Part shown: positions 1 to 31,825 of the stretch, in pieces | Layout of the letters: the number at the start of each line of letters is the position of its first letter | Numbering within the stretch: the first letter of the stretch is position 1 | IMG/VR virus record: IMGVR_UViG_3300009365_003806 | Span: 1 to 33,124 of that record | DNA: 33,124 nt | Source: a virus | Strand: one strand, 5' to 3' | Translations under genes and position numbers: made by a program | Notes under the pieces: generated by a model | Seen by the model: the letters and a program-made list of their open reading frames with translations, nothing else | Database searches by the model: none | What the model was told of the DNA's origin: nothing

Positions 1-236
1 TCAAGTATACGCGCTCTCTGCTTCGAGATGGGGTGTTCGCAGCCCGATCGGAATCCCGGCCATCGCTTTTAGGCTCCGGAGATCCCTGCTTGAACTCTCC
101 GCGTCTCTGGTCAACAGCACTCTCTGAGTTAACGGCCCTGTTCCCACTGCACCCCGCTCTGGAGTTTGGGCGTCACGATGTGAACTCGGCATGTCCGGCT
201 CATGTAGTTAGGAGACAGCTCGTTCACGCGAGATCC

Positions 237-8743: not shown

Positions 8744-9523
8744 ATGGACCTACTGAAGCAGGTGATGAGCGGACGAAGTCCCGCCCCGCGTCGCTTGATG
8801 CTCTACGGGACTCACGGCATCGGGAAGTCAACCTTCGCGGCGATGGCCCCCGAGCCGATCTTCATCCAGACCGAGGACGGCCTGGGTGAGATCGACTGTG
8901 CCAAGTTCCCCCTCGCCACCTCCTTTGATGTGTCCATGCAGGCCCTCTCGGAGCTCTATTCCGGGAAGCATGCCTATCAGACGGTGGTGGTGGACACGCT
9001 CGATTGGCTTGAGCGATTGATCTGGGCTGAGGTCTGCCGCCAGCGTAACGTCGAGAGCATCGAGGACATCGGCTACGCCAAGGGCTACGTCTTCGCGCTG
9101 ACTCATTGGCGAGAGTTCCTCGAGGGACTAGCTGCCCTGCGTAGCGAGCGCGGTATGACCGTGATCCTCCTAGCCCACGCCCGCATCGAGCGTTTCGAGA
9201 ATCCCGAGACCGAATCCTACGACCGCTATGTGCCCCGTCTTCACCGGCTCGCCTCTCAGGTGATCCAGGAGTGGTGCGACGAAGTGCTCTTCGCCGCGTT
9301 CCAGGTCTTCACGAAGCAGACAGACGAGGGCTTCAGTCGCAAACGGACGCAGGGCATTGGTACGGGGGCGCGCATCGTTCGTACAGTCGAACGCCCATCC
9401 CACATGGCCAAGAACCGGTTAGGCCTCCCCGACGAGCTGCCGTTGGATTGGGCTGCCTACGCCCAGTACTTCCAGGCCCAGATAGAGAACAAATCACCTT
9501 CTACCAAGAAACAAGGAGCGTAG
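8744..9523 (+). CDS. phage P-loop ATPase (AAA_24 / Sak4-like)
   Basis: RecA-fold ATPase of 259 aa of the phage nucleotide-binding protein type (PF13479). Walker A is YGTHGIGKSTF (Gly22-Ser29) and Walker B is TVVVDTLDW (Asp84). Later motifs are VILLAHARIE and a lysine/arginine-rich end. Members of this group include Sak4, a single-strand annealing protein that works with a single-stranded DNA binding protein. The surrounding exonuclease, DUF669 and RusA genes fit that role in recombination-dependent replication. AGGGAG precedes the ATG by 8 bases. Annealing activity is inferred. Confidence 0.9.
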   Translation: MDLLKQVMSGRSPAPRRLMLYGTHGIGKSTFAAMAPEPIFIQTEDGLGEIDCAKFPLATSFDVSMQALSELYSGKHAYQTVVVDTLDWLERLIWAEVCRQRNVESIEDIGYAKGYVFALTHWREFLEGLAALRSERGMTVILLAHARIERFENPETESYDRYVPRLHRLASQVIQEWCDEVLFAAFQVFTKQTDEGFSRKRTQGIGTGARIVRTVERPSHMAKNRLGLPDELPLDWAAYAQYFQAQIENKSPSTKKQGA

Positions 9524-9528
9524 CAGCT

Positions 9529-9984
9529 ATGGCAAACCTGTCAGGCTTTGATGCCAATACCGTGGACCCGGCTGGGGACTTCGAGCCTCTACCCGCTGGC
9601 AAGTACTTAGGCCTCATCACCGACTCGGAGATGAAGCCGACTAAGAGCGGCACGGGTCAGTACCTTCAGATCACCTTCCAGGTGATCGATGGACCTTTCC
9701 AGGGGCGCCTGCTCTGGTCGCGGCTGAACCTGCACAATCCCAGCCAGCTTGCCGTGCAGATTGCCCAGAGCGAGCTCTCGGCCATCTGCCGGGCGGTGGG
9801 AGTCATGCAGCCCAAGGATTCGGTCGAGTTACACAACCTGCCGCTTCAGATCACGGTGAAGTGCAAGAAGCGGGAGGACACGGGGGACGTTGTCAACGAG
9901 ATCAAGGGCTACTCCAAGAAGCCGGCTACGGCCAGCGAGCCTCCGCAGGAGACGGGGAACACCCCTCCCTGGGCCAGACGATGA
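9529..9984 (+). CDS. DUF669 protein, probable single-stranded DNA binding protein
   Basis: Protein of 151 aa of the DUF669 family, found in phage recombination modules next to Sak4-like ATPases. Typical signs are the start MANLSGFDANTVDP, then FEPLPAGKYLGLITDSE, TGQYLQITFQVIDGPFQG and LLWSRLNLHNPS, followed by LSAICRAVG. The C-terminal tail is short and variable, ending TPPWARR. The likely role is to cover single-stranded DNA and load the annealing ATPase. The ATG at 9529 was chosen because the family begins there; an in-frame upstream extension lies inside the ATPase gene. It overlaps the RusA gene by 4 bp. Confidence 0.88.
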   Translation: MANLSGFDANTVDPAGDFEPLPAGKYLGLITDSEMKPTKSGTGQYLQITFQVIDGPFQGRLLWSRLNLHNPSQLAVQIAQSELSAICRAVGVMQPKDSVELHNLPLQITVKCKKREDTGDVVNEIKGYSKKPATASEPPQETGNTPPWARR

Positions 9985-10334
9985 CGGTCATCACGCTTCC
10001 CTACCCGCCTTCGGTTAACCACTACTACCGGCGGGTCGGTCCCCGGACGCTTATCAGTAGAGCTGGTCGGCGATACCGTGAGCGTGTGGTGGCCGCATTG
10101 GCGGCCCTCAAGGTGCCGACCATGGATGGCCGGTTGCATCTAGAGATCGAGTTCTACCCGCCTGACCGTCGGCGCCGCGACATCGACAACGTGCAGAAAG
10201 CGCTCTTGGATGCGCTGCAGCACGGAGGGCTCTACGAGGATGATAGCCAGGTCGTCGAGCTCAGAGCACGCAAGTGTGATCCACTACCCAATGGCGCAGT
10301 CTTCGTCTACGTGGAGGCCGCGTCCGGTGATTGA
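9981..10334 (+). CDS. rusA: RusA-like Holliday junction resolvase
   Basis: Endonuclease of 117 aa that cuts Holliday junctions made during replication and recombination. The family start LPYPPSVNHYYRR is followed by RAGRRYRERV. The acidic metal site is complete: RRRRDIDNVQKALLDAL gives Asp67 and Asp69, and LYEDDSQV gives Asp87/Asp88. The length matches E. coli RusA (120 aa). The ATG overlaps the DUF669 stop, and the helicase gene starts before this gene stops, so all three are translationally coupled. Confidence 0.95.
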   Translation: MTVITLPYPPSVNHYYRRVGPRTLISRAGRRYRERVVAALAALKVPTMDGRLHLEIEFYPPDRRRRDIDNVQKALLDALQHGGLYEDDSQVVELRARKCDPLPNGAVFVYVEAASGD

Positions 10335-12024
10335 GCTCCGTCCCTACCAGCGGGAAGCCGTTGATGCCATCTATGGGCACCTACGGTCTCGTGATGACAA
10401 TCCCTGCGTGGTGATTCCAACTGGTGGGGGGAAGACACCGGTGATGGCCACATTATGCCGTGACGCGGTCCAGCGGTGGCAGGGCAGGGTGCTCATCCTC
10501 GCTCACGTGAAAGAGCTGCTGGAACAGGCAGTGGAGAAGGTCCACCAAGTAGATCCGGATCTCTGGCATCAGACGGGGATCTACTCAGCTGGTCTGCGGA
10601 GTCGAGACACCGACAAGCCGATCATCATCGCGGGGATTCAGTCGGTCTACAGGCGAGCCTGCGAACTCGATGCCTTCGACCTAGTCATCATCGACGAGGC
10701 CCACATGATCCCGCCCGAAGGTGACGGGCGCTACCGGACCTATCTGGCCGATGCGGTGAAGGTCAATCCGAACCTGCGCGTGATCGGCTTGACGGCTACC
10801 CCCTTCCGGATGAAGAGCGGTCTGCTCTGCTCGCCCGAGGGCGTCCTAAACCACGTTTGCTACGAGATTGGGGTGCGTGAGCTGATCGTCCAGGGCTTCC
10901 TTTGTCCGCTGGTTACGAAGAGCGGCGCTGAGCCGCTAGACACCTCGGGCCTGCACGTTCGGGCTGGGGAGTTTGTTGCCGGTGAGGTCGAAGCTCTCAT
11001 GGACACCGAGGAACGAATCCAAGCAGCCTGTCAGGAGATCGTCGAGCAGGCCGAAGGCCGCCAATCGGTATTGATCTTCACCAGCGGCGTGCAACACGGG
11101 GAGCATGTGGCTGCGGCCTTGCGAGCGGAGGCAGGCGCAGAGGTCGGAGCCGTCTTTGGCGAAACCCAGACTTCCGAGCGTAACGATGTTCTCGACCGGT
11201 TCAAGGCTGAGCAGCTCAAGTACTTGGTCAACGTCAATGTGCTGACCACCGGCTTCGATGCCCCAAACATCGACTGCATCGCCATGCTCCGGCCGACCCT
11301 CTCACCGGGGCTCTACTACCAGATGGTCGGACGGGGTTTCAGGCCCAACCCTGGCAAGGACGACTGCCTCGTCCTCGACTTCGGCGGCAATGTCCTGCGC
11401 CATGGACCCGTTGATGCGATCAGGATCGACGAAAAGGAGCGCAGCCGGGCAGGAGAAGCCCCGGCCAAGCAGTGTCCCGAGTGCAGAAGTCTCGTAGCAA
11501 CGGGCTACGCCCTCTGTCCTGACTGCGGGTTTTCTTTCCCTCCTCCGGAGCGGGAGGCCCATGACCCTACAGCTTCCACGGCCGGGATCCTGAGCGACCA
11601 GGTCGAGATCGAGGAGTATCAGGTTCAGTCGGTCTTCTACTCAGTGCACCACAAGCGAGGCGCATCTGATGATGCCCCCAAAACACTTCGAGTCGAATAC
11701 CAGGTAGGCCTCGGGCAGGTGCAGTCCGAGTGGATCTGTTTTGAACACATGGGCTGGCCGCGGGCAAATGCTCGCTCTTGGTGGCGGCAGCGCTCAAAGG
11801 CCCTGGTTCCAGAGACGTCGAGTGAAGCTGAAGTCCTCGCCAGTACGGGTGCACTATGCGAAACACGCTCGATCATCGTGCGCACCGCGGTGGGGGACAA
11901 GTACCCCACGATCATCGGTTACGTGTTAGGGGAGAAGCCCTCGTGGCGCGAACCGGGGGAAGACGACGATGATGATTCCACGTCTGTCATCCCTGCATTT
12001 GATGACGAGGATCTACCGTTTTGA
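10327..12024 (+). CDS. SF2 DEAD/DEAH helicase with zinc finger
   Basis: Helicase of 565 aa that probably unwinds DNA in replication or recombination. Seen in order: Q-like start ELRPYQREAVDAI, Walker A PTGGGKTPVM (31-40), DEAH box LVIIDEAHMIPP (Asp122-His125), motif III LTATPFRM (155-162), motif V-like NVLTTGFDAPNID, and motif VI MVGRGFRPNPGK (about 337). A four-cysteine finger (CPEC and CPDC) follows at about 382-400. The acidic C-terminus ends DDDDDSTSV and DDEDLPF, a tail reminiscent of single-stranded DNA binding proteins. The GTG at 10327 is chosen because it starts one residue before the conserved motif and overlaps RusA; a much longer frame begins upstream but lies within RusA. Confidence 0.93.
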   Translation: MIELRPYQREAVDAIYGHLRSRDDNPCVVIPTGGGKTPVMATLCRDAVQRWQGRVLILAHVKELLEQAVEKVHQVDPDLWHQTGIYSAGLRSRDTDKPIIIAGIQSVYRRACELDAFDLVIIDEAHMIPPEGDGRYRTYLADAVKVNPNLRVIGLTATPFRMKSGLLCSPEGVLNHVCYEIGVRELIVQGFLCPLVTKSGAEPLDTSGLHVRAGEFVAGEVEALMDTEERIQAACQEIVEQAEGRQSVLIFTSGVQHGEHVAAALRAEAGAEVGAVFGETQTSERNDVLDRFKAEQLKYLVNVNVLTTGFDAPNIDCIAMLRPTLSPGLYYQMVGRGFRPNPGKDDCLVLDFGGNVLRHGPVDAIRIDEKERSRAGEAPAKQCPECRSLVATGYALCPDCGFSFPPPEREAHDPTASTAGILSDQVEIEEYQVQSVFYSVHHKRGASDDAPKTLRVEYQVGLGQVQSEWICFEHMGWPRANARSWWRQRSKALVPETSSEAEVLASTGALCETRSIIVRTAVGDKYPTIIGYVLGEKPSWREPGEDDDDDSTSVIPAFDDEDLPF

Positions 12025-21177: not shown

Positions 21178-23805
21178 TTAAACCCCATAGGCTCTACCGA
21201 CATCGGAGATAAGGCTGTGTAGCTCGGACCGCACAGCATCTGAGAGTTGGTCGCTATAGGCATCAACGAGTGGACCAAGGGGGACGAGGAAGCTGGAGAC
21301 GAACTGTCGTCTGGACTCGTCACCTTGTAGCTTGCGTACGGAGATCTTGTCCTTTGGACGATCCGTGCTGGCGGGCTGTTCACACACACACCACCCCGCA
21401 CTTCCCTGCCAAGTGATTGTCCCAGGCTCAACCTTCCATGCTTTTAGGCGGCTCCGAAGGGCTTGAGTAGGGCTGTCACCAACCACCTTCTCAAAGGCTG
21501 CAATGGCCGCCCCGCGCCTTTGAACTTGAACCCACCATGTATCGAGCATGGCCACTTCACCCTCGTACTGGGTGTGTTGAATCAGTTGGCGAAGTTCCTT
21601 GCCTATGCGCTCCAGAGATGCACCCCGCCATACCCATGGGTGATGCGCCGCTGACACGGCACAGGTGAGGTCGAAACACACGAGGTCTTGCCCATCACCT
21701 TCCTGGTGTGCAGCCAGGCCCCAAGCCGCCAGGGCTGCAGCAAGCCGAGGTGTAGCTAGAGCCTCCCTAAAGGCATCGGGGTTGGTTTCTAGCTCCAAGC
21801 GGGTAGTAAGCTCTCCTCGCACATCGTCTGAGTGACCGCTGAAGAACATGGCTCGCCATGCCTTCTGACTAGTCGTGAAGAAGTCCTGGCCCCTCATCCA
21901 ACCTTGCTGGCGACCCACCCGAAGCAGAAGCGCTAGCATAATGATGGCTCGTCGTATGTCTGCGGGACTCCTCTCGCCGATGAACTCCGGGTCAGATAGC
22001 AGGTCGAGCATCTGTTGCAGAACAGCCAGTGCACGCTTCTGGCATCTCGCAGACTTGCCTGATGTGATGCCCTGTTGAGGCGGCGGAGGAGGTGGTGGGG
22101 GATCCAACTCGCCCTCATCTTCCGCAAGGCCATTTGAGTCCAGATCACTCGGATCATCCTCATCGTTCCAGGCATCTAGGCGATCGACTCCATCTTCGCC
22201 ACGACTCCATTCGATGAGGAGAGAGAGGGTCGAGCTAACGACATCATCTTCTGCTTTCGCGGCCGAACCGATTGAGGAGTGGGGCAAAAAAAAGGACGAG
22301 AGAAACACATCCTCTTCGTGCCAGGTCTTCGGGGCTGAATCATCAAGTTGCTTTGGCGGGGATCCCCCTCCTCCTTGCGAGGTTGGGATCGCAATCTCCT
22401 CGAAGGCGGCATCCACTAAATCAGCCCAAACCTCAATGGTCCAATGGGCTTTCTGCTGGTTTTGGTAGACAAGGTCGATGAGGCGACGACGCGCAGCGGA
22501 GCCTCGTAGGAGGGCCTCGACATCAACCCAAAACTCGGGTGTAGACCATTCCTTATCGTGCAAGAGTCCAAGCACTCGAACCCGGCTCGGGGGAGATTCG
22601 AGGTGGGCGAGGAGTTCGCCACTCTCTTGGACGTGTGTCGGGACCACTGTACCGTCCACTTCAATGTACCTTGCATCAAAGTCGGCGTGTGCGCTAACGG
22701 CGACAAGTAGCGTGCCCATGTCATAGCGTGCGGCAAGTACAACAGGATCGCGATGCTTGGCCTCCTCATCCTCGTTGTCTTCTGGCGCTTCAGGGATCTC
22801 GAGTGATCTTTTGTGCACTTCAAGTTCGGCCAGAAGGGACTCGGTCAGGTTGTTGGCGTCGCCTTCGATGACGGCTACTAGCTCCGCGTTTCCAGCAGTC
22901 CCTGAGACCGTCAGCGCCGCTCTTGAGCAGTTCGCGCTTCCTACGATTGCAGTGCCTCGATCTCCCCTGGTGGCAAGTATCCACTTCGCATGCAACCGTG
23001 CCCGTTTTCGCTCCCCTTCTTCATCGGTGTGGAAGTAATCCGCGGGTCGTGCTTGAACGAAAGCAGGCCAAACGGCTAGGGCCGCAGGTAAGAGGTTCGT
23101 CGATGACTCCTGTGTAAGGACCTCGACTTGAGCAGCACCGGTCTCTTCAATGAGTCTTAGGAGAGCCTTACCCTCAGCATCGAAGTATGGGCTGCACACG
23201 GTCATCGCTGAGCCATGGATGCGCCCATGCAGCCGCGTGAGTAGCGACTCCCCTTCGCCTAGACGTCCAACGAGGTGGGCAGGCTCGGGCAATGGGTTGG
23301 CCCATCCACGGCTGGTAGGGTCAAACATAGCTGCTATCTCTCCGCGCAGTGTGTCTGCGAGAGGTAGGCGATCAAGAAGTGCATCTACATAGGCCTTGAA
23401 GGCCGCGATAGCACCACCCTCTCCGTCTGAAGTCTGGAATCGGGCCCAGATCTCGCCATTCTCACACCAGCCTCCGAAAGTGAGATTGCCGCTACCTACA
23501 AACAGAGTCGCACCGTCTGGAGACGCTAGGAAGATGGCCTTGGGGTGGAAACGTCCTCCTGAAGCTAGTGCTACCGGGACAAGTCGATAGCGCTCACCAA
23601 GGCCGACGATGTAGTCAGATTGCTGGGCAAAGGACGAGGCGGCACGCTCGGCATCTGCAAATACTGTCAAGGCGGGATTCCCAGCAGCCTTCAGCGCGCG
23701 CAAGACAAGGTGTTGCGTGAAGATGAAGTCAATGTCGTGGGTTAAGACTAAGGCATGTGTGATGCCCTGCAGCTCCTCAATCTCGTGTAGGACGCTGCTT
23801 CTCAT
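21178..23805 (-). CDS. double-HKD phospholipase D-like protein
   Basis: Protein of 875 aa with two HKD motifs of the PLD nuclease superfamily. The first is FHPKAIFLASPDGATLFVGS (His87, Lys89) continuing GSGN (104-107). The second is LHAKWILATRGDRGTAIVGS (His272, Lys274) continuing GSAN (289-292). Both motifs in one chain form one active site for phosphodiester cleavage. A middle region of about 300 residues and a linker with eight prolines (about 574-581) lead to a helical C-terminal domain of about 290 residues that I do not recognise. The ATG overlaps the stop of the upstream gene (ATGA), so the two work together. Likely a nuclease of a defence system; an ordinary lipid phospholipase is unlikely in this setting. 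Confidence 0.85.
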   Translation of the reverse strand: MRSSVLHEIEELQGITHALVLTHDIDFIFTQHLVLRALKAAGNPALTVFADAERAASSFAQQSDYIVGLGERYRLVPVALASGGRFHPKAIFLASPDGATLFVGSGNLTFGGWCENGEIWARFQTSDGEGGAIAAFKAYVDALLDRLPLADTLRGEIAAMFDPTSRGWANPLPEPAHLVGRLGEGESLLTRLHGRIHGSAMTVCSPYFDAEGKALLRLIEETGAAQVEVLTQESSTNLLPAALAVWPAFVQARPADYFHTDEEGERKRARLHAKWILATRGDRGTAIVGSANCSRAALTVSGTAGNAELVAVIEGDANNLTESLLAELEVHKRSLEIPEAPEDNEDEEAKHRDPVVLAARYDMGTLLVAVSAHADFDARYIEVDGTVVPTHVQESGELLAHLESPPSRVRVLGLLHDKEWSTPEFWVDVEALLRGSAARRRLIDLVYQNQQKAHWTIEVWADLVDAAFEEIAIPTSQGGGGSPPKQLDDSAPKTWHEEDVFLSSFFLPHSSIGSAAKAEDDVVSSTLSLLIEWSRGEDGVDRLDAWNDEDDPSDLDSNGLAEDEGELDPPPPPPPPQQGITSGKSARCQKRALAVLQQMLDLLSDPEFIGERSPADIRRAIIMLALLLRVGRQQGWMRGQDFFTTSQKAWRAMFFSGHSDDVRGELTTRLELETNPDAFREALATPRLAAALAAWGLAAHQEGDGQDLVCFDLTCAVSAAHHPWVWRGASLERIGKELRQLIQHTQYEGEVAMLDTWWVQVQRRGAAIAAFEKVVGDSPTQALRSRLKAWKVEPGTITWQGSAGWCVCEQPASTDRPKDKISVRKLQGDESRRQFVSSFLVPLGPLVDAYSDQLSDAVRSELHSLISDVGRAYGV

Positions 23806-25328
23806 GTAAACACCCCGTGAGCCCAGTCAATTCCAGTCCTGGTCGGCTGGAAGCCTCCTTGGGTCGAGCGGAGGTGCCCAATGTCCGCCATCACCTGGAG
23901 CACTGACGCTAGCCTTGTCAGGGAAAAGCCAGCTTTCGTCTTGGTTCCCGTTGGTACTAGGGAGTCTCCGCGGGGAAAGAAGCGAAGCGAGTTTGCCTGC
24001 CGTTGGGACATTTTCCGCATGGTGTGACGCAGATGCCTCGCTGCAACTACCGAGTGCATCAGTCTAGCTGTCAACTCAGCAGCAGAGCCATCAGCCTTCT
24101 CCAATAGGGCGAATGTGTCCTCCATCGCCTGATGATCGCGGACCTTTACGACTCCCGACTGTCGTAGCTGGCAAGACTGGTGTTCAATCGCCGCGAGGAG
24201 TGATAGCGCCGCCACCAATTGCCAAGCAGCGGGTAGGCCGGCAAGGTCACGTTTGGGTGGTGTCTGAAGGAATGCATCGGGACGAACACGATCCTGGAAG
24301 GTTGCCCAGGGTTCGGATAGGTCGATCGGCTGATCGTCGATCTCAGCCTCAATGGCCTTAGGGGGGCGCTGCCCCTGCAGATCCCTTGCGAGGTTGGTGA
24401 TCACCTCAGGAACCCCTGTCCCTCGGTTTGGCTCAAGGGAGTTGGTTAGAGCTGCAAGTAGCAGCTCAAGAGCGAAGTGTACTCTTTTGCGGAGCGCAAC
24501 CTCGCCCCATAGCAGACCGATATCTCGCTTCACTTGGTTCGATACAAGGTCAGCGTATGCAAGGTCGACCAATCCATCCGCGTCGGTACTCTGCCTCTGA
24601 AGCTGGTCGATTACCCAAGCGCGTGTCGCACTGAAACGACCCACTCGGCTGCTACTGGTCGCTTCCGCGGGTTCATCTAGGGCCTCAAGTAGAGCATGCT
24701 GCTCTTTAGGAGTGGACCGAAGTCGGTTTAGCGACAGATGCGGGCGTAGGCTGTCGAGCTGTTCGGATGCTAGGCCTTCCCCTGAAAACAACAGCTCCTC
24801 AGTGCTGGGGGGGATAGCCATGTATTGCACTAGGGCCTGGCCCCTTGGGGTCAGTGCAAGAGGGCCGCTCTCTTGAACCTGCTTGAGGAGCCCAAAGGCT
24901 TGAATGGGGGAGCTGTAGGCGTTGAGTACACCAGGGCGTCTTGACGGCGGGAAGTGTGCAGATCCGGAAGAGGCCAGGGAGTCGAGTTCAGTGCGGTAGA
25001 CATCACCACCTATGATGCCGGTGAAGCTTCCCTCTTCTTGGTCAAGCTCATCTGCTTGTGTGGCGGCTGCGATTAGAAACTCTAGCCGTGAGAGCAGCGC
25101 ATTCTGCTCATCGTCGTCTAAATGAAGGATGCCATCGCCTTCGCTGAGGAGCCGTTTGTACAGGACTGTCAGAGCCCACGTTACAAGAGTGATGTACCGT
25201 GCGCGTGGCGCAACCGTCGTAAGCCCGCCAACCAGCTGGACCTCTAGATTCTGGTCGAGCTGACGAACTCCGAGGATATCAAGCCCGGCGATAGTCTCTC
25301 GATATCGATCATTCCAGCTTAGCTTCAT
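23802..25328 (-). CDS. partner protein of the HKD nuclease, unknown
   Basis: Protein of 508 aa beginning MKLSWNDRYRETIAGLDILG. An early motif, LTTVAPRARYITLVTWALT, resembles the RARYxSxxxW motif I associate with some uncharacterised proteins near restriction and defence genes. Most of the chain is helical and the end has a winged-helix look (LASVLQVMADIGHLRSTQGG, FQPTRTGIDWAHG). The ATG at 25328 is preferred to a GTG at 25364, which has no ribosome binding site. The 4-bp overlap with the HKD gene indicates a two-gene operon. Probably the sensor or DNA-binding half of that system; this is inference. Confidence 0.75.
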   Translation of the reverse strand: MKLSWNDRYRETIAGLDILGVRQLDQNLEVQLVGGLTTVAPRARYITLVTWALTVLYKRLLSEGDGILHLDDDEQNALLSRLEFLIAAATQADELDQEEGSFTGIIGGDVYRTELDSLASSGSAHFPPSRRPGVLNAYSSPIQAFGLLKQVQESGPLALTPRGQALVQYMAIPPSTEELLFSGEGLASEQLDSLRPHLSLNRLRSTPKEQHALLEALDEPAEATSSSRVGRFSATRAWVIDQLQRQSTDADGLVDLAYADLVSNQVKRDIGLLWGEVALRKRVHFALELLLAALTNSLEPNRGTGVPEVITNLARDLQGQRPPKAIEAEIDDQPIDLSEPWATFQDRVRPDAFLQTPPKRDLAGLPAAWQLVAALSLLAAIEHQSCQLRQSGVVKVRDHQAMEDTFALLEKADGSAAELTARLMHSVVAARHLRHTMRKMSQRQANSLRFFPRGDSLVPTGTKTKAGFSLTRLASVLQVMADIGHLRSTQGGFQPTRTGIDWAHGVFT

Positions 25329-25539
25329 TTCACCATTGGATTCCCATGGGGATGGTGGATTCACAGAGTTGGCTAGTCGGATGCAAGCGCTGACTCAGAC
25401 TACCCCGGGAAAGATCTTCAGCTGCTCAATGAGCTCGCCGACCGCGATATCAGGCGTATGCATCCTCCATGACTTGGCTTGTTGTCGATCCCAACATGGA
25501 TCACATGCGGGCAGGATAGCACAAATACAGTGTATCAGA

Positions 25540-26898
25540 TTAGCGCAACTTTGGGAGGGCCGGCTTCCGGACAGACTGTCCAGCTCGAACGCGAGCCCAG
25601 TATCCTCGGGGCGGTACAGGGATCCGAAGCTTTCGACATGCCTTGCCTAGGGCAACGCCTGAGATGCCATACGCCTTCGCGACCTTCTGGACGGGATTCT
25701 TCCACACTTCGGCATAGAGGGTCTCTCGATCGTACCGGTTCATGAGGCGTTCAACCTCGTTTCTTCGGCGCTCTCGCACGCTGATCGGCTTTCGAATGAT
25801 CCCAAGGCTGATCAAGCGCTGTTGCATTCTTGAGGTCCGAGTCAGTTCCGCGAAAGTATCGGGATCGCAAACTGCCGGTTTCTTCAGGTGAGAGAAAATG
25901 CGCCGGATATCATAGTCATCGAACTTGAGTAAGGAGCGTCTTATCCCGGCAAGCCTCTCTGCATCAGCCTCTGCCCACTGGACTCCACTCTCTAGGATTG
26001 TCTCTGCGCCCCAACTTGGCCCTCGACCTGGCCAGGGCATGAAATGCCATGAATAGATGGAGGTTAGGTCAAGTGGGGGTTGCATCGAGAGGAGGTAGTG
26101 AACAACCGAGCCCGAGCTTGCATAGCGATACAGGTTGTCAAAATTGTCCTGATCTGGGTCTGGATGAAGACGTTTTAGGATGCCAAGGTTGCCTGTCTTC
26201 GCCGCTTCCTCCATTGCCGTCCATCCGCTTTGCTCATCATCTTCAAGGTCATCTTCCTCGGGGAAGCCGAAGCGTGGATCGGGCGCGTAGGTGTGTGGAT
26301 TGGCACCGGCCCAGAGGCAGAGGCTGACTCCTTTCTCGTTCTCTTCGCGAACATGGCAGCCAAGGGCGATGTTAAGCTCGCCCTGGATCTTGGGCTCCCC
26401 AGGACTATGACGCTTCACAAAGCCGAGAAGCGGCCGATTCGACGGGGTCTCGCCGAGGTACATGCCCAGGGTGTGGTATTCAGTGAAGTCACATCCTGCT
26501 AGCCAGAAGCGCTCATAGAGCTCTGAGTTGTACGTGTTTAGTACCGTAAAGGTGTCCGCACTCCTGACGTCCGCCCCCCACGCGATCAGTAGGTCAACTA
26601 GATCCCACCGCCTTAAGCCGAGTGCGGAATCCAACGGGGTTGACGAGTCTTTGGCTATCGAGTAGCCGCTCGATAGCAGGAGATAAGTGAGAGAGTGCTG
26701 CCCGCTTTGAACTGCTATTTGTAGGGCGGATCTAAGTCTCTTCTCTCTCTGGATGGCGTTTGGGGCTAGCTGGAGAGGGTTGCCTTGAGATATCCATCGC
26801 TCCACGTCATACAACCGTCCCTCAGAGCACATCGCAAGCAATGGGCGAAGGTCATCTTGCGATTGGGCGAGCGTGCAATCTGGCACAATGGACCTCAA
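25540..26898 (-). CDS. ankyrin-like protein with C-terminal HTH
   Basis: Protein of 452 aa. The N-terminal half has ankyrin-like repeats (LRSALQIAVQSGQHSLTYLL, LDSALGLRRWDLVDLLIAWG, GWTAMEEAAKTGNLGILKRL). The last 60 residues carry RETLYAEVWKNPVQKVAKAY and GISGVALGKACRKLRIPVPP followed by RGYWARV. This is a DNA-binding-like motif found at the ends of several uncharacterised bacterial proteins. Protein-protein contact and DNA binding are thus combined in one chain. The start is uncertain (TTG 26898 or GTG 26886), with GGAG close to the TTG. It is encoded upstream of the HKD pair but 211 bp apart, so co-transcription is possible. Confidence 0.78.
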   Translation of the reverse strand: MRSIVPDCTLAQSQDDLRPLLAMCSEGRLYDVERWISQGNPLQLAPNAIQREKRLRSALQIAVQSGQHSLTYLLLSSGYSIAKDSSTPLDSALGLRRWDLVDLLIAWGADVRSADTFTVLNTYNSELYERFWLAGCDFTEYHTLGMYLGETPSNRPLLGFVKRHSPGEPKIQGELNIALGCHVREENEKGVSLCLWAGANPHTYAPDPRFGFPEEDDLEDDEQSGWTAMEEAAKTGNLGILKRLHPDPDQDNFDNLYRYASSGSVVHYLLSMQPPLDLTSIYSWHFMPWPGRGPSWGAETILESGVQWAEADAERLAGIRRSLLKFDDYDIRRIFSHLKKPAVCDPDTFAELTRTSRMQQRLISLGIIRKPISVRERRRNEVERLMNRYDRETLYAEVWKNPVQKVAKAYGISGVALGKACRKLRIPVPPRGYWARVRAGQSVRKPALPKLR

Positions 26899-27396: not shown

Positions 27397-28317
27397 ATGA
27401 CGCCTAAGAGCAAACCGACCGTTGTAGAGGAGCAAGTAGCGGCAGGGAGCAAGGGGAAAGAGGCAGCCGCAGATGAAGCCCAAGTTCATCCTCGAAACCA
27501 ACTGAATGATTTGACAGCCAAGCGTTGGATTGCTGAAACAGTTTCAGTTTGGCACCAGCAGGGATTAGGGGCGAAACATCCCGATGCTCAGATTGAACGC
27601 CAGCATCCAGCGCCATTTTCATTCACCGATGTTAGCAGATTGATCCGGTTCTTTACCAAGAGCGGAGGTGTTGTACTCGATCCGTTCGTTGGTGTCGGCT
27701 CGACTCTGAAAGCATGTGCGCTTGATGGGCGGAAGGGAATCGGCATCGAGCTTAACCCGCGATTCGCGGATCTATCGCGTGAGCGGCTGGCAAAGGAAGT
27801 AAAGGACCTCTTTGCCAGCTCGGAGGAGCAAGAGGTTCTAGTTGGGGATGCCAGGGATCATGTGAAACGAATCCCAGATGCGAGCGTCGATTTCGTCGTA
27901 ACAAGCCCCCCGTACTGGTCCATTCTCAAAAAGAAGGACCATAAGGCAAACCAAGAGCGAGTAGCGAACGACCTAACCACGGATTATGGGGAAGATTCGC
28001 GAGATCTCGGAGTCATTGAGGAGTACCCAGCGTTCCTATCTGAGCTTAGCGACATCCTCGAAGATTGCGCGAGGACTCTGAAGCCTGGAAAGTATATGAA
28101 TCTCATCGTTAGTGACTTTAGGCATAAGTCGCGGTATGTGATGTTCCATTCCGACCTGGCTCAGGCAATGGAAGAGCGCGGCCTAGAGATGAAGGGCCTC
28201 AAGGTTCTCTACCAGAGGCACAAGAAGGTTTACCCTTATGGCTACCCCTACTCTTATGTCCCGAACATCCATAACCAGTTCATCCTCATCCTCCAGAAAC
28301 CGAAAGAAAAGAAGTGA
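27397..28317 (+). CDS. DNA methyltransferase 1 (motif I before SPPY)
   Basis: Protein of 306 aa that transfers a methyl group from SAM to an amino group in DNA. The SAM motif LDPFVGVGSTLKAC (94-107) comes before the catalytic TSPPYWSI (169-176), with IGIELNPRF as motif II. This order differs from that of the next gene. The SPPY form is common in cytosine-N4 enzymes and also occurs in adenine-N6 enzymes, so the base is not decided. A family-like N-terminus (QLNDLTAKRWIAETVSVW) follows a lysine/alanine-rich extension. AGGAG lies 8 bases before the ATG. It overlaps the second methyltransferase by 4 bp (GTGA). Probably the protective part of the neighbouring nuclease system. Confidence 0.9.
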   Translation: MTPKSKPTVVEEQVAAGSKGKEAAADEAQVHPRNQLNDLTAKRWIAETVSVWHQQGLGAKHPDAQIERQHPAPFSFTDVSRLIRFFTKSGGVVLDPFVGVGSTLKACALDGRKGIGIELNPRFADLSRERLAKEVKDLFASSEEQEVLVGDARDHVKRIPDASVDFVVTSPPYWSILKKKDHKANQERVANDLTTDYGEDSRDLGVIEEYPAFLSELSDILEDCARTLKPGKYMNLIVSDFRHKSRYVMFHSDLAQAMEERGLEMKGLKVLYQRHKKVYPYGYPYSYVPNIHNQFILILQKPKEKK

Positions 28318-29123
28318 AGTCGCAGATCATCCTAGGAGATTGCGTCGCGGGGATGCAGGCCCTGGAAAGCAATTCTATCAATCTCATCGTGGCAGACCCC
28401 CCCTATAACCTGGACAAAGACTTTGGGGCATGGAAGGAGTCTGAGCGCCGAGATAGCTGGCGCGAATGGATGAATGTCTGGCTTACTGAGGCAAAGCGCC
28501 TCTTGTCTAAGCGAGGCAACATCTTCGTGTACGGCATCCACCGCCACCAATGCTGGGTGCAATGCATGATGTATGATCTAGGACTTGAGTATCGTAGGCA
28601 GATTATATGGTATTACGAGAACGGGTTTGCGGGGTATCAGCGCAGCTTGAATGCTTTTTACGAGCCTCTATTGTGGTTTTCCAAGACTGGTGACTACATC
28701 TACCATCCAGTGAGAGAGCCGTACAAGAGCCAAGAAAGGCTTAAACACAAGATCACTAAAAATGGAAAGGTGTGGAAGCCTCATCCGGATGGTCGCATGG
28801 CAGGTGATGTCTGGGCCTTCCCTACATTGGCGGGAAGAAGATTCCGCGATGAAAAGGTCGACCACCCGACACAAAAGCCTCTCTCGATCTCTCGTCGACT
28901 TGTGAAGCACTTCTCCGACCCAGGTGATACGGTGCTTGTGCCCTTCGTCGGAAGTGGTAGCGAGTGCGTTGCGGCTGTCCTGGAAGGTCGAGGCTACCTC
29001 GGGTTTGAGCTTAACTCGGAATACATAGAGATCGCTCACAACCGATTGGACAATGCCATCAAAGAGCGGGCTGAGCAGCTCACTTCAGCGGAGAGTACGC
29101 TCCAGGATAAGGCTCAGCAATAG
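28314..29123 (+). CDS. DNA methyltransferase 2 (DPPY before FVGSGS, beta type)
   Basis: Protein of 269 aa with the beta-class order: catalytic VADPPYNLDKDF (Asp28-Tyr31) first, then DHPTQKPLSI (183-192) and the SAM motif LVPFVGSGSECVAA (208-221). DPPY and the HPTQKP motif favour adenine-N6. GTG start within the stop of methyltransferase 1. The 3' end overlaps the iron-sulfur nuclease gene on the other strand by 44 bp. Two different methyltransferases in tandem are usual where the recognition sequence is asymmetric and each strand needs its own enzyme. The target is unknown. Confidence 0.93.
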   Translation: MKSQIILGDCVAGMQALESNSINLIVADPPYNLDKDFGAWKESERRDSWREWMNVWLTEAKRLLSKRGNIFVYGIHRHQCWVQCMMYDLGLEYRRQIIWYYENGFAGYQRSLNAFYEPLLWFSKTGDYIYHPVREPYKSQERLKHKITKNGKVWKPHPDGRMAGDVWAFPTLAGRRFRDEKVDHPTQKPLSISRRLVKHFSDPGDTVLVPFVGSGSECVAAVLEGRGYLGFELNSEYIEIAHNRLDNAIKERAEQLTSAESTLQDKAQQ

Positions 29124-30123
29124 GATCTAAAGATGGAACCAGGTGCTTCATTGACGCTGAAAGATCTGAGGCGGCCTGTGAAGTCGAAAACAACTCGTCG
29201 CCGAACTCCGTAATTCGGACAAAGTGCATTGCTAGAACAGCTAAGGCGCCTAACGAAACAGTACGGCATCGTAGTCCAAGTACTTGCTCGATATCATCTA
29301 CCACGCTGTAGTACTCTGAGCGTTCATTCGGTAGAGATAGAACGCAGCTTATGGGCAAGATTCCTGGGGCAGGAATGTCGAAGCGATTGTGGAGAACAGC
29401 GACATCCTCCAGCAACGCTCGAGGTGATTCTAGGGAAGTGGCGGCTTTAAGCTCGATCTCAAGCACTCCACTCACTTCTGTAGAAATGCCAATTACACCG
29501 TCCATACGAATATTCGTGTCGCCTGCTCTTCGGATTCGGCAGGGCACACCGCATGCAATGAACAAGCTACGCACTAGTAGTGACTTTGTGCGGTCGTTTA
29601 GCTTTCCGATTGCAGCAGGCAGAGATCTCAAACTCTCCGCATTGGGGGAGGCTATTCTGCCCGTTCGAACTGGATCAGGGTGAGGAGACGTCGTTTGTCT
29701 GCCTATAGAGATGCCGCTTGGATCTGATGTTTCAATAGAAGCAAGTCCGAACTCATTGGCAGACAGCGCACCAAATGGGCAGAGGGCGATGCAGGCTCCA
29801 CAGCCTATGCAGAGATCACGGTCAATATCGATAAAGTCGTGTTCTTCGTTCCAGGAAATCGCCTCTGTTGGGCATACGTGAGTAGAAGGGTCGCCTGGAA
29901 AGCTGGCTAGTGCGTCATGTAGGGTAAAGGCGCTCGGGGGGAGGCGCATGCATGGAGAGTCAAAGCATCCAAGGCACGTTCCTAAACCCGTAGTGCCACA
30001 TTCCAATCGTACTGTGACTGGTGCAGAGCCATCTCCATAGTCGAGAGAGGTCACTGCTGAGAGATAGTCCTTTTTCCTGCCAGCGGGAGCTGTTGCCTTT
30101 TGGTGCGGTATGACTTCAGCCAT
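29080..30123 (-). CDS. ferredoxin domain fused to a PD-(D/E)XK nuclease-like domain
   Basis: Protein of 347 aa. The N-terminal half resembles a two-cluster [4Fe-4S] ferredoxin: CLGCFDSPC (Cys50, 53, 58) with VCPTEAI (Cys84), and CIGCGACIALCPFGAL (Cys105, 108, 111, 115); Cys42 is extra. After a linker (about 135-170) comes a nuclease-like domain with RMDGVIG (Asp208) and VLEIELKAA (Glu224, Lys226). It ends in LPNERSEYYSVVDDIEQVL and LGALAVLAMHF. The same tail occurs in the neighbouring 569-aa protein. The ATG at 30123 overlaps that gene by 8 bp and is preferred to a start at 30174. Clusters might be structural, redox-sensing or regulatory. Nuclease activity is inferred. Confidence 0.85.
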   Translation of the reverse strand: MAEVIPHQKATAPAGRKKDYLSAVTSLDYGDGSAPVTVRLECGTTGLGTCLGCFDSPCMRLPPSAFTLHDALASFPGDPSTHVCPTEAISWNEEHDFIDIDRDLCIGCGACIALCPFGALSANEFGLASIETSDPSGISIGRQTTSPHPDPVRTGRIASPNAESLRSLPAAIGKLNDRTKSLLVRSLFIACGVPCRIRRAGDTNIRMDGVIGISTEVSGVLEIELKAATSLESPRALLEDVAVLHNRFDIPAPGILPISCVLSLPNERSEYYSVVDDIEQVLGLRCRTVSLGALAVLAMHFVRITEFGDELFSTSQAASDLSASMKHLVPSLDPIAEPYPGAYSPLK

Positions 30124-31825
30124 GCAAGAATCCCCGTAGTTGCTTGAGTTGATTGCTTTCAACAGTATCACCACTTGACACAGATTGAATTGCGAGAGCT
30201 GCTAAAGCGCCTAGATCAATGACACCGATGCTAATGCTAAATGCGGAGTGAATATCATCAATCAGCATCGCCATATCTCCCCGCTCATTGGGAGCCTTGA
30301 ACCCGATGATTAGAGTGGAGCTGTTTCTGTCTGTGGGCATCCCACCTCGGGATAGTAGAATTACCTTGTTTTCTAAGGCTTGCCGGATGGCTTTGGTCGA
30401 CAGGTATTCCTCCTCAGTTGGAGACTTTATTTCGATTGGCAATGTAACACCGTCAACGGTGGCGTAGGCATCCCATCGTTGGTAGTTCACGCCTGGGCGT
30501 GATGTTTCGCAGTTGAATCCAAGTAGCCGGATTAGATTGGCGACGAGAGGGTAAAATACTGCCTGGGTATCGTCCTGATGTCTGGCCACGAAGGCCTTGG
30601 CTGCATCCTGCGGGTTGCTCTGCTGGGCAATAAGGATGGTGAGTTCATCCTTCAGCGGGCGTAGGTTTTCATCGTCTGGGGGGACTGGCTGCCGCACAAG
30701 AATAGGCCGAATGATGAGATGATCCCGGGAGTCTCGGCCTGTCACACTACCTGGCCGAACATCTGCCGGGGCAGCTTGCTGGCCAGGGGCCTCTGTTGGG
30801 AAGATTGCACCTATTCTCTCCAAAGATATGGACTGGAAAGGCGAGAATAGGACTAGTGCATCACGAGGTATAGCGAGCCGGTCTTTTGCAGAGCTTAGGG
30901 CCGGTGTGAGGTCCTCTAGTAGGGTCTGAATAGATTCCACTTGGAATCCAGATCGATGGAGCATTGAGAAGTGCGCATGGATCGCCAAAGCTTCTTGCTC
31001 GTCCGCGGGAAGAGATTCAAAATCCTCGACTCGAACATCAGCAGCATCGACTACCAGTTGAGCGAGGCGTTGTCCCTTTTCAGTCAGCTGGTGTACTTCG
31101 AACGAGCCACGCTCGTGGGTGTAATCTCTTCGGACTTTTATGGTCCACCCCATGTCACGCATCGTGCCTATTGGCCACCGGGTGTAGTTCTTGAGAGTGT
31201 TGGGCTGAATCCCACATTCATCGCTAATGCGCTCAAGCCCTTCCTGGACATCGCTCCTGCTGCGCCGCAGCCTGCTCACCAGTTCGCAAAGACGCGGAAT
31301 CGTATCTGCCGGCCTATCCGAGGGAACACTCAGCGGGCCGATGATCATTTCATCGCGCGATAGAGTAAAGTCGCAGGCGAGCATGGTTTTTAGGAGAAGG
31401 GCGAAAGGGCGAATCTGCTGCTCGCTGCGATTGCTTATGATTCGACTGGGGTGAGAAATGCCTAGCATAGTCTCGCTGAATATCCGCGAGTAGTACGGGC
31501 CAGCTTCGACGACCTGGTGGCCTAGCAGTGTGAATGTGTAGTTAAGGGCGCGGCCTTCAATCGGGTGAAGCCAGCCCAGGGTCCTGAACAGCTCAGTGTA
31601 CATTTTGAGCTGGTTAAACAAGGGATCACGGCTTCTGTCTAAGCGCCGCGATCTATCCATGGCTTTAGTGCCCATATGGCCAGATGAAGTTGCCAAATTG
31701 GCTTCAACCGCAGCGAGTACGAAGTCGTCATTGTCAACGACATGGCCGCTGAAACGTTGGAGAGCTGCTGCAAACACTGCAACGAAGGTCGGTATGCTCG
31801 AGCCAGGATTGGGAAATCTCAACAT
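30116..31825 (-). CDS. restriction-endonuclease-like protein with PD-(D/E)XK domain
   Basis: Protein of 569 aa beginning MLRFPNPGSSIPTFVAVFAA. The N-terminal two thirds are helical, with winged-helix-like parts (PLFNQLKMYTELFRTLGWLH; MRDMGWTIKVRRDY), and probably recognise DNA. The C-terminal domain holds YQRWDAYATVDGVTLPIEIK (Asp452, Glu465, Lys467), a PD-(D/E)XK site, then APNERGDMAMLIDDI and IDLGALAALAIQ, matching the tail of the iron-sulfur protein. Start chosen at ATG 31825 with AGAGGA upstream; TTG 31912 and ATG 31891 would add up to 29 residues. It is the first gene of the nuclease operon. Likely the sequence-recognising restriction subunit. Confidence 0.83.
   Translation of the reverse strand: MLRFPNPGSSIPTFVAVFAAALQRFSGHVVDNDDFVLAAVEANLATSSGHMGTKAMDRSRRLDRSRDPLFNQLKMYTELFRTLGWLHPIEGRALNYTFTLLGHQVVEAGPYYSRIFSETMLGISHPSRIISNRSEQQIRPFALLLKTMLACDFTLSRDEMIIGPLSVPSDRPADTIPRLCELVSRLRRSRSDVQEGLERISDECGIQPNTLKNYTRWPIGTMRDMGWTIKVRRDYTHERGSFEVHQLTEKGQRLAQLVVDAADVRVEDFESLPADEQEALAIHAHFSMLHRSGFQVESIQTLLEDLTPALSSAKDRLAIPRDALVLFSPFQSISLERIGAIFPTEAPGQQAAPADVRPGSVTGRDSRDHLIIRPILVRQPVPPDDENLRPLKDELTILIAQQSNPQDAAKAFVARHQDDTQAVFYPLVANLIRLLGFNCETSRPGVNYQRWDAYATVDGVTLPIEIKSPTEEEYLSTKAIRQALENKVILLSRGGMPTDRNSSTLIIGFKAPNERGDMAMLIDDIHSAFSISIGVIDLGALAALAIQSVSSGDTVESNQLKQLRGFLHG

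Follow-up and report, generated by a model that had tools for sequence, protein, structure and literature searches.

A phage-borne restriction-modification locus whose small nuclease subunit is predicted to carry a two-cluster ferredoxin domain

Can a restriction enzyme carry a bacterial-type ferredoxin domain, and what would iron–sulfur clusters do in such an enzyme? The question is raised by four genes at 27397-31825 of virus record IMGVR_UViG_3300009365_003806, analysed here over its positions 1 to 33,124 (the window, 33,124 nucleotides in full). The genes encode two DNA methyltransferases (MTases), M1 and M2, and two nuclease subunits, R1 and R2. They very probably form a heterodimeric Type IIS/IIT restriction-modification (RM) system on the BspD6I/BtsI plan, in which R1 would nick one strand and R2 would cut the second, with a predicted two-cluster ferredoxin domain that would be packed rigidly on the R2 nuclease. 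The features of the locus are as follows, with protein lengths in amino acids (aa).

27397..28317, plus strand: M1, DNA methyltransferase, 306 aa; PF01555 (E=1.1e-25) and PADLOC MTase_II.
28314..29123, plus strand: M2, DNA methyltransferase, 269 aa; PF01555 (E=5.1e-47).
29080..30123, minus strand: R2, small nuclease subunit, 347 aa, a ferredoxin domain fused to a FokI/BspD6I-like nuclease, as indicated by the model, the fold and orthologues.
29719..30081, minus strand: R2 ferredoxin domain, about residues 15-135; Pfam Fer4 families, eight cysteines in 49/49.
29083..29595, minus strand: R2 nuclease domain, about residues 177-347, with D208, E222-x-E224 and R235; conservation, homology to R1 and fold.
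30116..31825, minus strand: R1, large nuclease subunit, 569 aa from the ATG at 31825, with an N-terminal recognition region and a C-terminal nuclease according to the predicted fold.
30185..30613, minus strand: R1 nuclease domain, D452...E465-x-K467; all three residues invariant (n=54).

All four open reading frames are intact. M1 and M2 run rightward with a 4-nucleotide overlap (GTGA), and a ribosome-binding-like AGGAG lies 5' of the M1 ATG. R1 and R2 run leftward with an 8-nucleotide overlap (ATGGCTGA), and M2 and R2 are convergent, their 3' ends overlapping. Both MTases match N6_N4_Mtase (PF01555), and their motifs are ordered differently: motif I (DPFVGVGS) precedes motif IV (TSPPYW) in M1, and motif IV (DPPYN) precedes motif I (VPFVGSGS) in M2. 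An earlier sequence-only reading had described two MTases of different motif order converging on two overlapping nuclease genes, and this layout is borne out. The SPPYW motif of M1 suggests, without proving, N4-cytosine methylation (m4C). M2 matches the NCBIfam adenine-specific MTase PRK11524 at 3e-41, under the equivalog cut-off, and is by its sequence related to N6-methyladenine (m6A) enzymes.

The structures of R1 and R2 were predicted as AlphaFold2 monomer models that include no predicted aligned error (PAE), partner or metals. The R2 model reaches a predicted local distance difference test score (pLDDT) of 93.3 and a predicted template modelling score (pTM) of 0.92; the R1 model reaches 89.7 and 0.63. 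Both contain a nuclease core, in line with the sequence-only reading. A Foldseek search of the PDB with the R1 fold returns Nt.BspD6I (E=4e-9) and FokI (E=2e-7), each over the whole chain, as the sole matches below 1e-3. For the R2 nuclease fold, the matches are FokI, the catalytic domain of the BspD6I large subunit and, at a weak level, 2p14, the small subunit of BspD6I. The nuclease domains of R1 and R2 are also similar to each other in direct comparison (E=1e-7) and in profile–profile alignment (97.8% probability, E=7.7e-13, R1 404-546 with R2 163-302); by these alignments the two catalytic domains are paralogous. R1 and the R2 nuclease are uncatalogued: neither has a family in Pfam, NCBIfam or PADLOC, and the relatives of R1 share no Pfam family.

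The active sites of the two subunits differ. The D...E-x-K motif of the PD-(D/E)XK superfamily is invariant in 54/54 R1 sequences (in 569-aa numbering; the alignment lists the same residues as D451, E464 and K466). R2 has the fold of this superfamily with a D...E-x-E motif instead of D...(D/E)-x-K: D208, E222 and R235 are present in 49/49 ferredoxin-type proteins and E224 in 48/49. The sequence-only reading had placed a PD-(D/E)XK-like domain in both proteins. This agrees with the nuclease folds and with the R1 motif, and it does not extend to the R2 lysine it had chosen, K226, which occurs in 1/49. BamHI functions with an E-x-E active site, and R2 is therefore taken as catalytic.

This gene content resembles that of Type IIT systems, in which a large subunit recognises the site and nicks, a small subunit cuts the second strand, and two MTases are present (PMC4081073, PMC2909958, PMC6261011). 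The small subunits of BtsI, BsrDI and BspD6I have no specificity of their own and need the large subunit for activity, and such systems usually include two MTases (PMC4081073, PMC2909958, PMC6261011). The window's locus shows two unequal catalytic subunits (569 versus 347 aa, with paralogous domains), two MTases as in every complete locus found, and a large subunit that combines recognition and nuclease regions by fold, at a low template modelling score (TM-score). BtsI and BsrDI share with it M1, M2 and a large and a small nuclease subunit (PMC2909958, PMC4081073), a likeness of gene content only, and no ferredoxin domain is described for them. R.BspD6I/BstNBI (PDB 2ewf, 2p14), composed of a large recognition and nickase subunit and a small catalytic subunit, provides the best full-length fold match of R1. 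Its small subunit has 186 aa (PMC4081073) and, unlike R2, no iron–sulfur domain. By its models the system would work like BspD6I, but R1 shows no detectable sequence similarity that would place it in the BspD6I sequence family.

The sequence-only reading had likened the plan to BbvCI. Two MTases with two nuclease subunits are indeed present, and BbvCI likewise has two different nuclease subunits and an asymmetric site; here, however, the subunits are unequal and the recognition region lies on R1 only. BbvCI is absent among the 50 fold matches listed for R1 and for R2, and after the fold search it was replaced as the model by BspD6I, with BtsI and BsrDI the closest in plan.

The four-gene set recurs widely. 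Scans of viral contigs yielded four further ferredoxin-type contigs (L003, L004, L006, L007) and two ferredoxin-less ones (L012, L013), and an R1-profile scan of genome contigs yielded 58 loci. Profiles were then run over the genome-scan and viral loci, the window included, and all four genes were found in 56 loci, 49 with the ferredoxin domain and seven without it, in answer to the proposal that the set be sought elsewhere. In each of the 56, R1 and R2 lie side by side on the same strand, and the MTase pair, present throughout, always adjoins them, in one of four positions relative to them. The ferredoxin half, sought in homologues as a possible separate metabolic gene, is fused to the nuclease wherever it is present. 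Most loci lacking a complete R2 are cut by contig ends; two of them (L027, L036) retain part of a ferredoxin-type R2, and two others (L081, L082) have a short R1 only. The carriers span about 15 phyla, including Bacillota, Pseudomonadota, Chloroflexota, Actinomycetota, Nitrospinota, Poribacteria and one archaeal metagenome-assembled genome (MAG); many carriers are MAGs, so single taxon assignments are unsure. Clostridium thermopalmarium DSM 5974, Ruminiclostridium cellobioparum DSM 1351 and Phaeobacter italicus CECT 7645 are carriers that can be cultured. No hit came from plasmids searched with R1 and R2 of the window and with two other R1 proteins, nor from phage records searched with two other R1 proteins.

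The ferredoxin domain is recognisable by its cysteines, C50-x2-C53-x4-C58, C84-P and C105-x2-C108-x2-C111-x3-C115-P, and by Pfam matches above curated cut-offs (LdpA_Fe-S-bd, E=4.5e-9; Fer4, 1.8e-8; Fer4_7, 9.3e-8). All eight cysteines are invariant in the 49 aligned ferredoxin-type R2 proteins, which are 24-48% identical to the window's R2, with the spacing 2-4-(21..26)-(18..20)-2-2-3. Such invariance excludes a chance origin of the pattern. The spacing of a two-[4Fe-4S] ferredoxin, as read from the letters alone, is therefore retained in its ligands, with the qualification that the first half-site is non-canonical: CxxCx4C is followed, in most members, by an insertion of 24-25 residues before the fourth cysteine (CP). 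The domain is predicted to hold two [4Fe-4S] clusters, and we infer by analogy that C50/C53/C58/C115 would ligate cluster I and C84/C105/C108/C111 cluster II. By sequence, this part resembles metabolic and solved ferredoxins; PADLOC BrxP (E=0.03) and NCBIfam RLI match it weakly. The ratio of non-synonymous to synonymous substitution rates (dN/dS) is 0.15-0.29 for this part, mostly looser than for the nuclease, and it is under purifying selection in the pairs that could be measured, namely those free of synonymous saturation. Moreover, ferredoxin and nuclease distances correlate (Mantel r 0.74; 0/2000 permutations), the pattern expected of two parts joined once and then inherited together.

Other nucleic-acid proteins with iron–sulfur clusters differ from R2 in architecture. 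AddB combines a PD-(D/E)XK-type nuclease with a four-cysteine iron–sulfur cluster. Cas4 is a nuclease of the same type, and its cluster is held by four cysteines (PMC4176176). In both, a single cluster lies within a RecB-like nuclease, whereas R2 has a separate eight-cysteine, two-cluster domain on a FokI/BspD6I-like fold, and neither Cas4 nor AddB is among the fold matches listed. The sequence-only reading had likewise set these two apart by fold. BrxP of type-4 BREX and SspD of some Ssp systems are PAPS-reductase-like proteins with a ferredoxin-type 4Fe–4S region (PMC12839542); they resemble R2 as anti-phage proteins with such a region and differ from it as DNA-modification enzymes with no nuclease.

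Precedents for structural ferredoxin domains are ABCE1/Rli1 and archaeal RNA polymerase subunit D. These are non-metabolic nucleic-acid proteins with a ferredoxin-like domain and no nuclease, and the ferredoxin part alone is comparable to R2. In the open-access literature, judged by title and abstract, no iron–sulfur restriction enzyme appears, only Dnd/Ssp, Cas4, BREX and unrelated papers, and such absence is no proof. Word searches of three RM reviews turned up no account of one either. BFVD contains the whole architecture in no protein among the matches listed. The earlier statement, that no described enzyme of this kind was known to its author, is consistent with this literature. We found no description of a ferredoxin-bearing restriction enzyme, which we regard as a new combination on an already known heterodimeric Type II RM plan.

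The ferredoxin-less relatives show how the domain may have been acquired. In the R1 tree, six of the seven ferredoxin-less systems form one clade (support 100), and the seventh, L050, from a Prochlorococcus single-cell genome (R2 at 9718-10284), falls inside the ferredoxin group. The R2 nuclease tree, rooted on the R1 paralogue, places the ferredoxin-bearing R2 proteins in one group (100), with ferredoxin-less ones basal and the Prochlorococcus protein nested. The simplest reading of these trees is that the ferredoxin was gained once, early on, and lost once thereafter; the placement of L050, a single case on a long branch, is unsure. Prochlorococcus lives in iron-poor, oxygenated water, and the loss of the ferredoxin in this one long-branch case is suggestive in that setting. 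The ferredoxin-less R2 proteins carry D...E-x-E in 7/7, and that of L012 has no NCBIfam family.

In the M1 and M2 trees, ferredoxin-less systems are intermixed with ferredoxin-bearing ones. One pair, L013 without and L064 with the ferredoxin, is 75% identical in M1 and 81% in M2, and 30% in R1 and 33% in R2. Since ferredoxin-less orthologues share the gene set and closely related MTases, the ferredoxin is an addition to the nuclease. Moreover, the targets of the two kinds are probably identical or alike, because MTase and nuclease must read one site and their MTases are up to 75-81% identical. A role of the ferredoxin in setting target specificity is unlikely, and is disfavoured by the intermixing of both kinds on the MTase trees. 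In two Poribacteria systems (L034, L040), M1 and M2 form very long branches that fall outside both MTase classes, while R1 and R2 are ordinary, which hints at MTase exchange, perhaps with a new target.

In the proposed mechanism, M1 and M2 would share the protection of an asymmetric site, one strand each, one enzyme probably making m4C and the other m6A. R1 would read the site via its N-terminal domains and nick one strand with its D/E-x-K domain. R2 would join DNA-bound R1 and, as in its family, cut the other strand at its D/E-x-E site. The two predicted clusters of R2 would be packed rigidly against the nuclease: the pTM of 0.92 and a high pLDDT that continues through the linker argue, in the model, for such packing. 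We give about an even chance to the clusters being a structural and assembly element, with loading a precondition for R2 to fold and dock, a role suggested by the rigid packing and by occurrence in both aerobic and anaerobic lineages. Restriction would then need iron–sulfur biogenesis, and cluster loss would leave R1 nicking alone. In BspD6I assays the small subunit is supplied in 12-fold excess to form the heterodimer (PMC6261011); firmer docking through such a domain would be of use.

Several observations weigh against this account. The Foldseek TM-scores of R1 against BspD6I are low (0.29-0.36), so the domain arrangement of R1 differs from that of BspD6I, and the R1 profile matched no restriction enzyme among PDB sequences. 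A conserved catalytic lysine is missing from R2. Support for a structural role of the clusters comes from a model of R2 as a metal-free monomer that includes no PAE. With a mean net charge of -5.4, the ferredoxin part is mostly acidic, which fits electron-carrier ferredoxins equally; its charge ranges from -15 to +4 in the 49 R2 proteins and so favours neither electron carriage nor DNA binding. Finally, since ferredoxin-less enzymes exist, the nuclease plan has no strict need of a ferredoxin.

The same system might instead use its clusters to sense redox, oxygen or iron, the cluster state turning R2 on or off and the enzyme from double-strand cutter to nickase. We hold this to be possible but rather unlikely. 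Two full, invariant ligand sets agree with it, as does the mostly acidic character of the domain, like that of electron carriers; 2x[4Fe-4S] ferredoxin domains are usually redox-active, and the nested loss occurs in Prochlorococcus, although that is a single long-branch case. However, the conserved gene set includes no dedicated reductase, and ferredoxin-bearing systems occur in Roseobacteraceae and Rubritepida, which are aerobic, as well as in Clostridia and Anaerolineae, which are anaerobic, while the ferredoxin-less clade also spans both lifestyles. The sequence speaks neither for nor against the suggestion, made earlier, that cleavage depends on redox state, and such dependence is possible. 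A plainer metal site, with the R2 cysteines binding zinc or a single cluster, would be hidden from sequence, where metal content is invisible, and could suit the non-canonical first cysteine group. Yet 4Fe–4S ferredoxin half-sites are marked by CxxCGxCxxxCP with G-A-I/L after it, many Pfam 4Fe–4S models and solved ferredoxins match, and all eight ligands are retained, so that such a site seems very improbable.

The E that replaces the (D/E)XK lysine in 48/49 ferredoxin-bearing and 7/7 ferredoxin-less R2 proteins could also mean that R2 has little or no catalytic activity and serves as a scaffold docked on R1 and DNA, with R1 cutting, for example, as a dimer. We consider this unlikely: D208, E222 and E224 are kept in 48-49/49 and D...E-x-E in all ferredoxin-less R2, catalytic acids are seldom retained in dead domains, and E-x-E functions in BamHI. 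The resemblance of the domain to metabolic ferredoxins would further allow R2 to be a redox or repair protein beside an RM system, with M1/M2 and R1/R2 as unrelated neighbours. With R1 and R2 adjacent in 56/56 loci and M1-M2 always alongside, in four gene orders and about 15 phyla, this is almost certainly not the case, and chance neighbourhood is rejected by that conservation.

The two-subunit restriction enzyme proposed here is carried by a phage or prophage. The window encodes a serine integrase, a sigma-like factor, a Sak4 annealing protein, a helicase, a primase, both terminase subunits and a ParB-methyltransferase, and these integrase, replication, terminase and other phage genes identify it as phage DNA. 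The window proteins scanned include recognisable replication and both terminase genes but nothing identified as capsid, portal or tail; the record is possibly incomplete or represents a satellite-like element. Beside the RM genes, a two-gene pair at 21178-25364 (minus strand) encodes an 875-aa PLD-domain protein, which the PADLOC models ZacB (E=3.5e-22) and DrmC match, and a 520-aa partner matched weakly by ZacA (0.0017); the pair is probably a second defence system. A 452-aa ankyrin-repeat protein at 25540-26898 (minus strand) adjoins the defence genes. In the related viral contigs, with gene names read off translations, the L003 cassette is flanked by lysis-like genes and an integrase, and that of L004 lies near a terminase-like gene. 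In L006 (2299-10851) the RM cassette sits between portal-like and large-terminase-like genes, in the packaging/head module. In L004, a reverse-transcriptase-like gene at 9316-10515 (minus strand) lies between the RM genes and the terminase-like gene, and is possibly a defence or diversity-generating gene.

Many DNA enzymes contain iron–sulfur clusters, and it is still debated if these are structural or act as redox switches. This family provides matched pairs with and without the ferredoxin, sometimes with MTases 75-81% identical and probably with the same target, and the role of the clusters is therefore directly testable by cleavage assay. The structural and redox-gating readings both predict that apo-R2 leaves the second strand uncut. 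Tentatively, these enzymes might make up a widespread restriction class where the redox or loading state of two iron–sulfur clusters decides if the second strand is cut, turning the enzyme between nickase and double-strand cutter with the iron, oxygen or infection state of the cell. They constitute a restriction family uncatalogued in Pfam, NCBIfam and PADLOC, distributed over about 15 phyla and over phages, from which natural nickases might be drawn.

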